Positions 35,526-41,698 of a stretch of DNA of 64,000 nt are shown here, one piece after another; within the stretch, counting starts at the first letter, position 1, and every line of letters begins with the position of its first letter. The position numbers and the translations under genes were made by a program. The stretch comes from Dehalococcoidia bacterium (GTDB taxonomy: Bacteria > Chloroflexota > Dehalococcoidia > Bin125): NCBI GenBank assembly GCA_022822855.1, contig JAJDYG010000008.1, positions 1 to 64,000 of the forward strand, given 5' to 3'. The notes under the pieces are model-generated. The model saw only the letters and a list, made by a program, of their open reading frames with translations. It was not told the origin of the DNA and ran no database searches.

Positions 35526-37064
35526 TCAGTCCGTCGGCGCGAGCGCGCGAGGCTCGATTAGCGCTCCGGCCCCGCGCACGGCCCGAATCTGTTCCGCCAC
35601 CGCCTCGGCGAGCTCGACCGTCCGCACCGCCGGCGCGGCCACTTCGCCGAGCACCGGATCGTCGCCCAATCTGCCTCCCGAGAAGACGTCGGCCACATCG
35701 ACAATCTCGCCATCGATTCGCTTGCGGCCGCCGAGCAGCCCAATCTCGCCCGCCCGGTGCTGTCCGCAGGCGTGTGGACAGGCCGACATCTGGATCCGCA
35801 CCGGTTCCGCGTCCGGCACCACCTCGTACCGCTCTTCCAGAGCGGCCGCCAGCTTGATCGCCTCGCCCTTGCTGTCGATCAGCGCGAACGCGCAGAAGTC
35901 GTTGCCGGTGCAACTGACCATCGCGCGGATGAACGCGGAAGGCGTCGGCGAGTAGCTCGAGAGCAGCGGTTGCGCGAGCAGCTCGTCGAGCCGGTCGGCG
36001 GGCACATCGGGGATCAGGATGTTCTGCTGCACCGTCAAGCGCAGGTCGGCGCTGCCGTAGCGCCTGGCCAGGCGACCGAACTCGATCAGATCGTCGCCCG
36101 CGATCCGTCCCACCGGCACCAGGCAGCCGACCGTTCTCAGCTCCGGATGCCGCTGCCTCGTGACCCCGATGTGATCGCCGCCGTGCCGAGAGGTCAGCGA
36201 ATCGCCGGCCCGAGTCAGCGTGCGGCCGTACTGCCGCTCGACCGCCTCGCGGAATCGCTCGATGCCCCACGCCCGCAGCAGCCACTTCAGCCTCGACTCC
36301 TTGCGCTTCTCTCGCAGACCGTGGTCGCGGTAGACCTCGAGAATCGCAACGGCCAGCTCGACCGCTTCGTCCACGCCGACGAAGGCGTCCAGCGGCTGCG
36401 CGTACTCCGGCGACATCCCGCCGAGGGCTCCGCCGACCAGCACGTTGAAGCCGATTTCGCCTTCGCGCTGAGCCGGCGCGAAGGACAGGTCGTGGACCTG
36501 CGCGTGAGCGCAGTCTTCGCGGCAGCCGGTGACTGACAGATTGAACTTGCGCGGCAGGTTCGAGAATCGCTTGCCGCCGATGATCGCCCGCTGCATCCGC
36601 TGGGCCAGCTCGCGCGTGTCGATCAGCTCGTCCTCGGTCAGACCCGACAGCGGGCAACTCACCACGTTGCGGATGTTGTCCATCCCCGATTGCTGCGTCG
36701 TCAGCCCGGCCGCCGACAGTCGCTGCAACACCCAGGGCGCGTCGGCGATGGTGATCCAGCGGAGCTGGATGTTCATCCGCGACGTGATGTCGGCCTGCCC
36801 GCGTCCGACCTGGTTCGAGATCTCGCCGATCGCCTCAATCTGTTCCGACGACAGCACGCCGCCGGGGATCCGCATGCGCAGCATGAAGTGTCCCGGCGTG
36901 CGCTTGCGATGGAACAGCCCGTACCACTTCAACCGCTCGAAGTCCTCCGCCGGAATCTGCGGATCTTCCCCCGCCGCCGCCAGCGCCGCATAGCGATGCA
37001 GGTCGGGCAGCACGTCGAGGCCGTCCCTGGCAGCCTTCAGCACCTCGATCTTGTTGACGACCAT
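35526..37064 (-). CDS. nirA: Ferredoxin-nitrite reductase (siroheme, [4Fe-4S])
   Basis: A 512-aa nitrite/sulfite reductase family protein. The siroheme-FeS ligands are C-x5-C in SCTGNDFC and C-x3-C in ACPHACGQ. Substrate-side motifs are RNVVSCPLSGL and TGCREDCAHAQVHDL. It reduces nitrite to ammonium in the cytoplasm. Position beside nasA and narK favours NirA over sulfite reductase. The ATG at 37064 has AGGAG 8 bases before it. Its leader (37065-37171) is duplicated at 37582-37699. Confidence 0.92.
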   Translation of the reverse strand: MVVNKIEVLKAARDGLDVLPDLHRYAALAAAGEDPQIPAEDFERLKWYGLFHRKRTPGHFMLRMRIPGGVLSSEQIEAIGEISNQVGRGQADITSRMNIQLRWITIADAPWVLQRLSAAGLTTQQSGMDNIRNVVSCPLSGLTEDELIDTRELAQRMQRAIIGGKRFSNLPRKFNLSVTGCREDCAHAQVHDLSFAPAQREGEIGFNVLVGGALGGMSPEYAQPLDAFVGVDEAVELAVAILEVYRDHGLREKRKESRLKWLLRAWGIERFREAVERQYGRTLTRAGDSLTSRHGGDHIGVTRQRHPELRTVGCLVPVGRIAGDDLIEFGRLARRYGSADLRLTVQQNILIPDVPADRLDELLAQPLLSSYSPTPSAFIRAMVSCTGNDFCAFALIDSKGEAIKLAAALEERYEVVPDAEPVRIQMSACPHACGQHRAGEIGLLGGRKRIDGEIVDVADVFSGGRLGDDPVLGEVAAPAVRTVELAEAVAEQIRAVRGAGALIEPRALAPTD

Positions 37065-37171
37065 GGCCCCGCTCCTGTCTCAGCCACCCTATGAGCGGCC
37101 GATTGCAGGCAGGTTGCCTTCAATGAACAGCATATGAACGCTGCCGCATGTTGTAGCGAGCTTTGCTGGCC
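37058..37171 (-). repeat. nirA leader, copy 1 of a ~115-base direct repeat
   Basis: Covers the nirA start codon, its AGGAG and about 107 bases upstream. It is nearly identical to 37575-37699, with few substitutions and one 10-base insertion in copy 2 (GATGTAGCAG-like). It contains GAACAGCATATGAACG, two GAAC half-sites 11 bases apart, a possible operator. Confidence 0.85.
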
Positions 37172-37377
37172 GGTTGGCCGGGTTGGGGACGCTGCCCCGG
37201 CCGGGGGCGTTCAGGAGCGGTCAGCTCTGGTTAGGTTTGGTTAGCTTTGGTCAGGGTGTTATGTCGCGCGGTTTCTCGAATGTCCCGTGTTTTGCTGGGT
37301 TTCGTGACTCGCGGTCAGTGGTCAGGCGGAAAATTTTCTGTGGGCCGTCTGCGTGGAAAAAACCGGGGTCTCCGGCA
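37172..37377 (-). repeat. A/C-rich element E in the nirA upstream region
   Basis: Read on the minus strand this gap is A/C-rich with CTGACCAAAGCTAACC, AAACCTAACCAGAGCTGACC and CTGACCACTGACC units. It holds ACCCAGCAAAACACG (37286-37300), identical over 15 bases to 42004-42018 in element D. It lies between the methylase fragment's stop and the first nirA leader copy, so it would be transcribed toward nirA. Confidence 0.4.
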
Positions 37378-37581
37378 TCAGTCGCTCTGTTGTTCTTGTT
37401 CGATGGTACCGGGTTGTCGGAGAGCTTGCTGTACGCCGTCGAGGAGCTGCTCGATCGCCAGGATCTGGACCTTCGGATAGCGATTGCCCGGCAGATTCTC
37501 CGGCTCGTGGAAGCCCGCTCCGATCGCTTTCTGCCCCATCGGCTCGGTCGGTTCTTCGAGCGTGATGAAGATGCCGACCAT
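37378..37581 (-). pseudogene. DNA methyltransferase C-terminal fragment fused to a nirA-type start
   Basis: A 67-aa frame starting at ATG 37581, whose GGGAG and leader are copy 2 of the nirA leader. The protein MVGIFITLEEPTEPM, AIGAGFHEPENLPGNRYPKV and QILAIEQLLDGV matches, from memory, the C-terminal tail of site-specific adenine/cytosine-N4 DNA methyltransferases (G-x-x-I-T-L-E-x-P-T-x-x-M ... Y-P-R/K-x-Q-I-L-T-I). The SAM-binding and catalytic parts are absent, so it cannot be an active methylase. It may still be translated. Confidence 0.6.
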
Positions 37582-37699
37582 GGCCCCGCTCCCGTCTCAG
37601 CCACCCCATGAGCGGCCGATTGCAGGCAGGTTGCCTTCAATAGACAGCATATGAACGCTGCCGCGTGATGTAGCAGGATGTAGCAAGCTTTGCCGGCGG
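37575..37699 (-). repeat. nirA-type leader, copy 2 of the direct repeat
   Basis: Second copy of the repeat at 37058-37171, 517 bases away. It keeps the GGGAG site and ATG but drives the methylase fragment. GAACAG of copy 1 is TAGACAG here; CATATGAACG is kept. It ends 10 bases before the stop of the Dpp-type permease gene. Confidence 0.85.
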
Positions 37700-37708
37700 A
37701 CAAACGAG

Positions 37709-38602
37709 TCAGCGGAGATTGCGCAGCCGAGGATCAAGCGCATCGCGCAGCCAGTCGCCCATCAGGTTGCCCGTGAGCGAGATGATCAACAGAGTCAGCC
37801 CAGGCAACCAGATCGGCCACCAGGCGACGTTCATCGTGTCGCGGCCCTCGGTGATCATCCGACCCCACGATGACGTTCCGGGCGGCACGCCGACGCTGAG
37901 GAAGCTCAGCGCGGCCTCGGCCAGGACCACCAACGCGACCTCCAGGGTCATGACAATCACGATGGTGTTGAGCACGTTGGGCAAGAGGTGCTTGCGCATG
38001 ATCCACGCGGGGGCGGCCCCTACCGCTCGCGAGGCAGTGACGAAATCACGCTCGCGTAGCGAGAGCACATCGGCCCGCACCAGTCGGGAATAGGAGGGCC
38101 AGGTCCAGAACAGCAGGATGACGATCACGTTGGTCAAACTGGGACCGACCAGGCTGGCCATGAGCACGGCAAAGAGGATCGCCGGCAGCGCCAGCTGTAG
38201 ATCGACCACCCGCATCAGGATCTGACCGGTCATTCCGCCGACCCAGCCTGAGACGAGGCCGATCAGTGTGCCAAACAGGGCGGCGCCCGGGACGACGATC
38301 CCGACGACGATCAAGGACACTCGCGCTCCGTGCAGCAATCGGCTGTAGATGTCGCGGCCGAGTTCGTCGGTGCCCAGAGGATGAGCCCAGGTGCCGCCGT
38401 CAAAGACCGGAGGCGACAGGCGCGCGGCCAGGTCGATGAACTCGGGATCGTGCGTCTGCAACAACTCTGCGAACACGCCCGCAATCAGGACGACCAGTGC
38501 GATCAGGGCCGGAATGGACAGACCGATGTATCGCCGCCAGCGAATCCGTCGACGCCGCATCCCCGGCTGGAACTCGACCGCGTCCGCGGTGCCGGCTGCC
38601 AT
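37709..38602 (-). CDS. Dipeptide/oligopeptide-type ABC permease (DppC family)
   Basis: A 297-aa inner-membrane permease. The N-terminal OppC/DppC-type segment has PPVFDGGTWAHPLGTDELGRD and YSRLLHGARVSL. The EAA loop is ASRAVGAAPAWIMRKHLLPNV, and EAALSFLSVGVPPGTSSWG is a DppC hallmark. It overlaps dppB by one base (TGATG). It is the last gene of the operon 41698-37709. No ATPase genes are present, so the system must borrow ATPases encoded elsewhere. Confidence 0.92.
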   Translation of the reverse strand: MAAGTADAVEFQPGMRRRRIRWRRYIGLSIPALIALVVLIAGVFAELLQTHDPEFIDLAARLSPPVFDGGTWAHPLGTDELGRDIYSRLLHGARVSLIVVGIVVPGAALFGTLIGLVSGWVGGMTGQILMRVVDLQLALPAILFAVLMASLVGPSLTNVIVILLFWTWPSYSRLVRADVLSLRERDFVTASRAVGAAPAWIMRKHLLPNVLNTIVIVMTLEVALVVLAEAALSFLSVGVPPGTSSWGRMITEGRDTMNVAWWPIWLPGLTLLIISLTGNLMGDWLRDALDPRLRNLR

Positions 38603-39724: not shown

Positions 39725-41698
39725 TCAGGTCTTGATCCGCTGGATCGCGAAGGTCATCAGGAAGTTCAGATTTCCGACCCGACCTCCCTTCGGGTAGTTG
39801 ATATCGGCTCTGGTGACCACCGTGTCGGGCGGCTCGACGATGAAGATGAAGGTGGCCTGGCGCGTGTGTTCGAGCAGCAGCTCGGAGATGAGCTCCAGCC
39901 GGCGATCGGGGTCCTGCTCCACCCGCTGTGCGAGGTAGAGCTCCTGCAGGCGCGGATCCTGGGGCGGGGAGATGGTGAAGAAGCCATCGGCGCTGCCGCA
40001 GCATTCCCACATCGATCCGATGTCGGGGACGGCATTGGCGTAGAACCAGTACAGGCCCCAGGGGGCCGCATCCCTGCCCGAGGAGTACTGCGGTGTGAAG
40101 TACTCAGAGCCCAGCGTCGGCACCGGCGTGACGCGAATGCCAATCTGAGCGAGGTCCTGGGACGCCACCAGCACTAGATCGGCGACCACATCGCCGCCCC
40201 AGTCCGGCGTGTAGTAGAGCGGCACATCGATCCCGTCCTCATAGCCTGCCTCGGCCATGAGCTGCTTCGCCTTTTCGATGTTGTAGTCGAATTCCACCTC
40301 CGCTTTCTGTTCCGGGTTGGGATAGCCTGGCACGCCGCTGTAGACGAGCATCGACATTTCGCCCACGCCAAGGAACAGGTTGTCGATGATCGCGCGGCGG
40401 TTGATCGCATGGTTGGCGGCCTGGCGGACGCGGATATCGAGGAAGGGATTGGGATCGCCGTCGGGCGTGGTCTGCTGCCAGAGGTTGGGGTAGATGTTGT
40501 GCACCGACCAGCCGGCGCCGGGCTGATACTGCACGGTGTAGTTGGGATCGTCGATGTAGGGCTTGGCCGCCTGGACGCCGACGCCCTCGGAGATCACGTC
40601 GATCTCTCCGGCTTCGAGGCCGGCCAGGCGCGACTGCAGCTCAGGCCGAACCAGGCCGATCAACCGCTTGTGGTGCGGCACGTGCGTCACCCGCAGCGGG
40701 TGATCGATCGGGTTGTAGTGATCCTCGAAGCGCTCGAAGATGAAGTTCTCGTCGTCGGTGTGGCTGACAAACCGATACGGGCCCGTGCCCATTGGCTCCT
40801 GGTCCAGCGCGAGATCGCCGCGGCTTTCGGTGTCCGCCTGAGAGTGGATCGTCACCTCGCCGGACCCGTCCATGTTGACGGTCAGGAAGCCCGCATCGGG
40901 CGCCGGCAGCTCGATCGCCCAGGTGCGATCGTCCGGCGCTTCATTGCGCACCCAGTTCAGCGCGCTTCGGGCCGGGTAGGCCGGCACCCAGCCGCCGGAG
41001 TGATCGGTCGTTTCGCCGCCCTGATGGTAGTCGGCCAGGCCGCCCATCCGGTCGTAGCTGAAGACCATGTCCCCGGCGACCAAGGTCGAGCCATCGTGGA
41101 ACTTGGCCGGGATGATGTCGAGTCGCAGGGTGACGGGATCGATCCATTCCGGCGTCGCCAGGCCGGCGGCCATTGAGTTGTCACGCGGATCGCGATCGAG
41201 CGGACCGCTGTAGACGGCGCCGTGGCTGATGTAGTTCTGCGCGCTGCCGGTTCGGTGATGGTCCAGCCCGCCGGAGTCGGAGGGCACGGCGATCACCACC
41301 TCGGAGTCGAGGTCGACCTGGTCGAGAGGAAGCGGCATGGACCATTCCGCTTCAGTCTCTCCGGCTCCTTCGGCAATCTCTTCGGCCACCTCTTCCTGTT
41401 GTGTGGCGGCCTGCGCCTGTTGATCGGCCCGTTGCTGCTGCATGGCCTGTTGCTGGCCTTGCTGCTGCATGGCCTGCTGCTGATCTTGCTGCTGGGCCTG
41501 CTGCTGCATGGCCTGTTGCTGCTGCTGATCCTGCTGCTGCGCCTGCGCGACGGACTGCTGAGCGTCGTCATCGTCGTCGCCGCAACCGACCAGGGCGAGA
41601 CCAGTTGCGCCGACGCCCGCACGGGCCGAGGCTCGCAGAAGCGTCCGCCTGCTGAGCTGTCGACGTCTCATTCGCTGCCAATAGTTCCGGTCGCTCAT
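39725..41698 (-). CDS. Dpp-type ABC substrate-binding lipoprotein, Tat signal and Gln-rich linker
   Basis: A 657-aa protein. The N-terminus has a Tat motif (LSRRTLLRASARAG) and a lipobox LALVGC, then DDDDD. A linker of roughly 60 residues is mostly Gln with Met and Ala. The SBP_bac_5 (peptide/nickel-binding) domain begins about residue 130 (DSEVVIAVPSDSGGLDHH) and continues with RLDIIPAKFHDGSTL, VRQAANHAINRRAII and GYPNPEQKAEVEFDY. GGAAGG precedes the ATG by 7 bases. First gene of the Dpp operon; a paralogue is at 48373. The natural ligand is unknown. Confidence 0.9.
   Translation of the reverse strand: MSDRNYWQRMRRRQLSRRTLLRASARAGVGATGLALVGCGDDDDDAQQSVAQAQQQDQQQQQAMQQQAQQQDQQQAMQQQGQQQAMQQQRADQQAQAATQQEEVAEEIAEGAGETEAEWSMPLPLDQVDLDSEVVIAVPSDSGGLDHHRTGSAQNYISHGAVYSGPLDRDPRDNSMAAGLATPEWIDPVTLRLDIIPAKFHDGSTLVAGDMVFSYDRMGGLADYHQGGETTDHSGGWVPAYPARSALNWVRNEAPDDRTWAIELPAPDAGFLTVNMDGSGEVTIHSQADTESRGDLALDQEPMGTGPYRFVSHTDDENFIFERFEDHYNPIDHPLRVTHVPHHKRLIGLVRPELQSRLAGLEAGEIDVISEGVGVQAAKPYIDDPNYTVQYQPGAGWSVHNIYPNLWQQTTPDGDPNPFLDIRVRQAANHAINRRAIIDNLFLGVGEMSMLVYSGVPGYPNPEQKAEVEFDYNIEKAKQLMAEAGYEDGIDVPLYYTPDWGGDVVADLVLVASQDLAQIGIRVTPVPTLGSEYFTPQYSSGRDAAPWGLYWFYANAVPDIGSMWECCGSADGFFTISPPQDPRLQELYLAQRVEQDPDRRLELISELLLEHTRQATFIFIVEPPDTVVTRADINYPKGGRVGNLNFLMTFAIQRIKT

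Follow-up and report, generated by a model that had tools for sequence, protein, structure and literature searches.

The window, by which we mean the whole 64,000-nucleotide stretch of Dehalococcoidia DNA that was analysed, carries on its reverse strand an intact nirA gene (35526–37064) encoding a 512-aa protein of the ferredoxin-nitrite reductase type. The protein matches NIR_SIR and PRK09566, the latter at 533 bits, which is under the 594-bit cut-off of that model. A molybdopterin nitrate-reductase-type gene lies downstream of nirA. On the upstream side is an ABC-transporter permease gene (37709–38602, reverse strand), whose stop codon bounds the ancestral intergenic region of nirA on the side away from that gene. 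Further along the same strand, a solute-binding lipoprotein gene (39725–41698) encodes a long Gln/Ala/Met-rich tract just past the lipobox region, and this tract is specified by a degenerate tandem array at 41415–41546.

The leader of nirA is present twice between nirA and the permease gene. The ungapped cores of this direct repeat, at 37055–37157 and 37572–37674, are 517 nt apart and 93% identical over 103 nt; with a 10-nt indel allowed, the homology extends to about 37177 and about 37703, so that the repeat runs from codon 3 of nirA nearly to the permease stop codon (37709). This agrees with the earlier note, which had described a segment of ~115 bases occurring twice at that spacing. Copy A (37055–37177) is contiguous with the intact nirA and copy B (37572–37703) with the 3' end of the permease gene, both read on the reverse strand. 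When the entire 2.87-Mb genome was searched, the second copy was recovered at E = 8e-39 and no other significant match was found, which places the repeat far beyond chance. Copy B also matches the single leader of a sister species (locus L054 in genome G001) over 131 nt, ungapped; the 10-nt unit is found in copy B and L054 and is missing from copy A and from the leaders at L053, L055, L056 and L058. An Rfam search of 36900–37800 returned no match, and RNA folding gave both leaders a similar fold of modest stability, with no clear riboswitch in either.

Relatives without the intervening sequence were available for comparison. In three sister species (L054 in G001, L055 in G012 and L058 in G010), one leader and then nirA come after the same two permease genes in synteny, with the permease gene directly adjoining the leader and nothing in between. 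A fourth locus (L053 in G005) has the same gene order, with an assembly gap separating the permease gene from the leader. Set against this empty site, the polarity in the window, with copy B joined to the permease gene and copy A to nirA, is as expected for a sequence inserted into a duplicated target.

Between the two leaders, the ATG of copy B (37581) opens a 67-aa open reading frame (37378–37581, reverse strand), as previously noted. It runs in frame into a remnant of a methyltransferase-Mrr fusion gene and ends at what appears to be the native stop codon. The source family is represented elsewhere in the same genome by an intact gene on contig C26, whose 542-aa product has an N6_N4 methyltransferase domain (PF01555, residues 26–351) and, according to Pfam, an Mrr_cat / NA-iREase1-like domain at residues about 410–509. 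Window positions 37428–37578 are 91% identical to C26:80217–80367 over 151 nt, and positions 37258–37437 match C26:79711–79891 at 73%; at the protein level, the frame aligns with residues 447–514. The earlier note had likened the fragment to the C-terminus of a DNA methyltransferase, and had allowed that it might lack any methylase similarity. The fragment does come from a gene of that family; the part that survives is the Mrr-like end and not the methylase catalytic domain.

More precisely, the remnant corresponds to residues about 462–508 of a C26-type protein plus the C-terminal tail. Because it begins near residue 462, past what appears to be the nuclease motif (a D...QVK stretch), it has neither the methyltransferase domain nor that putative motif. 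On its own, the 67-aa frame has zero matches among Pfam and NCBIfam families, whereas the full C26 paralogue does match. After 47 aligned codons the frame is short of about 25 codons relative to the copy in G001 and then rejoins the tail in frame, both ending in QEQ-SD-stop. At the other end, the tetranucleotide GTCG (37575–37578, reverse strand) occurs both in the nirA start (ATGGTCG) and in the methylase-gene sequence (GTCGGC, taken from G001), and is possibly a microhomology at the join between leader B and the remnant.

Downstream, the remnant is trailed by a terminator-like hairpin (GCCGG-AGACC-CCGG followed by T6; 37356–37376, reverse strand; fold z-score −0.95) and by a copy of an intergenic repeat that is dispersed in the genus (37228–37398, reverse strand) and is also found downstream of the intact C26 gene. 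A similar hairpin, in the same arrangement with the intergenic repeat, occurs at G001:C12. This dispersed repeat is about 110–170 bp long with a core near TGTGTTTTGCTGGGTTTCGTGATCGG, and several of its copies stop at an identical base; besides the one in the window, copies were seen at G002:C5:46121, G010:C14:135573, G005:C21:41425, G005:C14:120406 and G012:C2:421301. Near the methylase-Mrr gene on C26, there are also three head-to-tail units of about 667 bp that are 79–94% alike (L004, 2082–3671 in G000:C26).

The two leaders have not evolved alike. They differ at five columns within a conserved stretch of 93 nt, one of these columns being the junction. At every one of them, copy A agrees with all five close relatives and thus retains the ancestral base, and copy B is derived. 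Leader A contains a conserved, PHO-box-like element with 11-bp phasing, GTTCAT-N5-GTTCAT (37123–37139, reverse strand), and a −10-like TAGGGT (37086–37091, reverse strand), of which the TANNNT pattern is found in most relatives, being retained in eight. In copy B, two changes turn the second half-site of the box into GTCTAT (37640–37656, reverse strand), and another turns the −10-like element into TGGGGT (37603–37608, reverse strand), removing the conserved A. The Shine-Dalgarno region is still present in copy B. Compared with the C26 gene, five residues of the 67-aa frame that are conserved in intact relatives have been replaced; replacement and synonymous codons stand at 5:5 for the fragment against C26, and at 2:9 for the intact C26 gene against its relative L121, a difference based on few changes (Fisher P = 0.18). 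Because the box and −10 changes are confined to copy B and the fragment has accumulated these replacements, copy B has probably ceased to work as a promoter of the nirA type, and the frame that it would feed is probably a pseudogene. The suggestion that the fragment would inherit nitrate-type regulation is not supported, and we infer that copy B is transcriptionally dead.

The element kept in leader A has few other sites. In 15 genomes of the genus, GTTCAY-N5-GTTCAY occurs 13 times, and eight of these occurrences are at nirA, in eight genomes. The genome of the window has two, the one at nirA and another at G000:C15:16001–16017 (L178), upstream of a gene that, from its translation, appears to be PhoX-like. 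The conserved nirA box suggests regulation of nitrite assimilation in this lineage by an OmpR-family (PhoP- or GlnR-like) protein; binding by a GlnR-like or other OmpR-family regulator is as plausible as binding by PhoP.

Flanking repeats were also sought around other members of the methyltransferase-Mrr family. G034 is a distant relative, placed in another family of the same class. An intact methyltransferase-Mrr gene there (1695–3350 in L125) is bracketed by 49-nt repeats that are 90% identical and have only these two copies in that genome. From the gene downstream, the repeat includes the Shine-Dalgarno sequence, the ATG and 12 codons. The downstream copy forms the beginning of this small gene (MIRFLYRLASVL...), with its Shine-Dalgarno sequence and ATG in place. 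In the upstream copy, the same beginning is cut after the 12 codons and reads into a stop overlapping the start codon of the methylase gene. In the phage contigs L229 and L230 (IMG/VR), direct repeats of 208 nt at 88% identity (1995–2202 and 4730–4936 in L229) surround a family member together with a 238-aa gene of unassigned function. Overall, long flanking repeats at this score were found at 4 of 92 family loci and at 0 of 84 control segments, a difference that is not significant (P = 0.07); about 88 of the 92 loci scanned gave no such repeat, and two of the four positives are doubtful, L222 being intergenic and L212 a terminator-like repeat. The L212 repeat was rejected as a target duplication since it looks like a repeated terminator, and flanking repeats at L164, L046, L175 and L041 were set aside as weak or as low-complexity or coding matches. 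Plasmid records contained distant family members only.

Genome G001 has two methylase-Mrr pseudogenes, at about 7.2–8.0 kb in both L119 (G001:C12) and L120 (G001:C14). They share one internal deletion (junction GATGGCCTAG) and have unrelated flanks, their homology running from 3 nt before the start codon to about the stop; synteny links L119 to the intact C26 locus in the genome of the window. It seems that a defective methylase-Mrr copy was itself copied to a second place in G001.

We favour, with moderate confidence, a history in which a restriction-modification (RM) type gene inserted before nirA with a long target duplication and subsequently decayed. A fusion gene of the N6/N4 DNA methyltransferase-Mrr_cat-like kind, with its terminator and 3' flank, would have inserted at the nirA start and duplicated a target of roughly 120 nt, comprising most of the permease-nirA intergenic region and the first nirA codons. 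Because the target was duplicated, nirA would have been left with a full leader, copy A. Deletion would then have removed the N-terminal ~460 residues encoded by the inserted gene and an internal stretch close to the C terminus, leaving the leader-B ATG joined to the stub. The earlier note had proposed, as one of two readings, a unit bounded by direct repeats that was inserted or partly deleted; the empty site in relatives and the origin of the fragment in a methyltransferase gene bear out that reading. The intact family members bracketed by repeats in G034 and in the phage contigs count as independent cases in favour of the history outlined here, and so does the published record of RM systems inserting with long target duplications. 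We further infer how the steps followed one another, and that it was the insertion which created the repeat. The locus would thus probably be a fossil of a known insertion type, not a working switch. Four observations temper this history: the insert is too decayed to display its original ends; most family loci have no long flanking repeat, their excess over the controls not being significant; the difference in replacement ratio is based on few changes; and the distribution of the 10-nt unit would also fit an origin of A and B in different lineages.

The last of these hints at the main rival, homology-assisted illegitimate recombination, in which nirA with leader A and a stub of the methylase gene would have come in together from another strain, using homology downstream and the GTCG microhomology to join the resident leader B, such that the two leaders have different ancestry. 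Gene distances for the nitrate genes and permeases are mosaic across the genus; in the window, the permease gene is nearest to L054 (92.7%), and nirA is about equally far (81–82%) from all close relatives. But the window nirA is no closer to any relative without the 10-nt unit, so that no donor is visible for a foreign nirA, and the unit itself, being a tandem duplicate, can drop out through slippage. The finding of the same gene family between leader duplicates in G034 would also be left unexplained. We consider this recombination possible but rather unlikely. Still less probable, in our judgement, is a tandem duplication of the leader, or of the leader with nirA, as an unrelated earlier event, with all or part of the methylase gene falling between the copies later. 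The final structure would be identical, and the order of events cannot be read from this locus because the original ends of the inserted gene are gone. However, two events at one place would be needed, no relative examined has a tandem leader or a second nirA, and repeats surround intact family members in G034 and L229/L230.

We find it very improbable that the second leader and its frame are functional, either as a nitrate-responsive small protein or as a second nirA promoter. The fusion is in frame up to the apparent native stop codon and the Shine-Dalgarno region of copy B is kept; set against this are the box half-site and −10 A lost in copy B only, the five replacements where intact genes are conserved, the terminator-like hairpin after the frame and the absence of all catalytic parts. 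An assembly artefact, which had been raised as a way in which the repeat might be explained, is the least probable of all: the genome is metagenome-assembled, in 42 contigs, but several substitutions and an indel separate the two copies and speak against duplication during assembly, synteny with relatives holds on both flanks, and the unit includes sequence of true paralogous origin.

The insertion followed by decay that we favour would contribute a fossil case from Chloroflexota, located beside a gene of nitrogen assimilation, to a type of mobility that has been deduced for restriction genes largely by comparing a few bacterial genomes. The pairing of a constrained leader A with a released duplicate B also makes a compact natural comparison, indicating which bases matter in the nirA promoter. 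The locus itself is a decayed case of a known rearrangement, and the part worth pursuing is the wider pattern in the methyltransferase-Mrr family. As a speculation that we hold to be doubtful, members of this family may move as nearly gene-sized units that land preferentially at gene starts and duplicate the leader, leaving the target intact and giving the newcomer a ready-made promoter and start, as in the window and G034; the G001 pseudogenes would indicate that internally deleted copies can be copied too. Should other members turn out to be arranged as in G034, this family would offer a defined set of genes in which to test how insertion with long target duplication works.

Several known systems can be compared with the features described here. 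The PHO box of Streptomyces consists of 11-nt direct repeat units with GTTCACC (PMC6988585). The leader-A box, GTTCAT-N5-GTTCAT, shares the 11-bp phasing and a GTTCAC-like core, is kept at nirA in the genus, and has its second site in the window genome upstream of the putative PhoX-like gene; the resemblance is one of sequence, and the putative regulator in this phylum may equally be GlnR or another OmpR-family protein. Relative to the intact PF01555 methyltransferase-Mrr fusion on C26, the remnant retains 91% DNA identity to the C-terminal part and is without the methyltransferase domain and the nuclease-motif region. Insertion of an IS element or transposon was considered and rejected, the unit having no transposase ORF and no terminal inverted repeat and the duplication exceeding 100 nt. 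Some RM systems, in contrast, insert with long and variable target duplications on the order of 100 bp (PMC3874152; PMC3031569), a kind of insertion known from the work of Kobayashi's group (Nobusato et al., 2000; Furuta et al., 2010, according to the accounts in PMC3874152 and PMC3031569). The window differs from these in having no intact mobile RM gene: only residues ~462–508 and the tail remain, about 150 bp of coding sequence, so that the locus can only be a decayed former member of the class. In other respects the two are alike, in that long direct repeats of the target bracket the insert, relatives without the insert (L054, L055 and L058) have the target once, the inserted sequence derives from a restriction/modification gene (the methyltransferase-Mrr fusion), no transposase or terminal inverted repeats are seen, and the repeat length is of the reported order of 100 bp.
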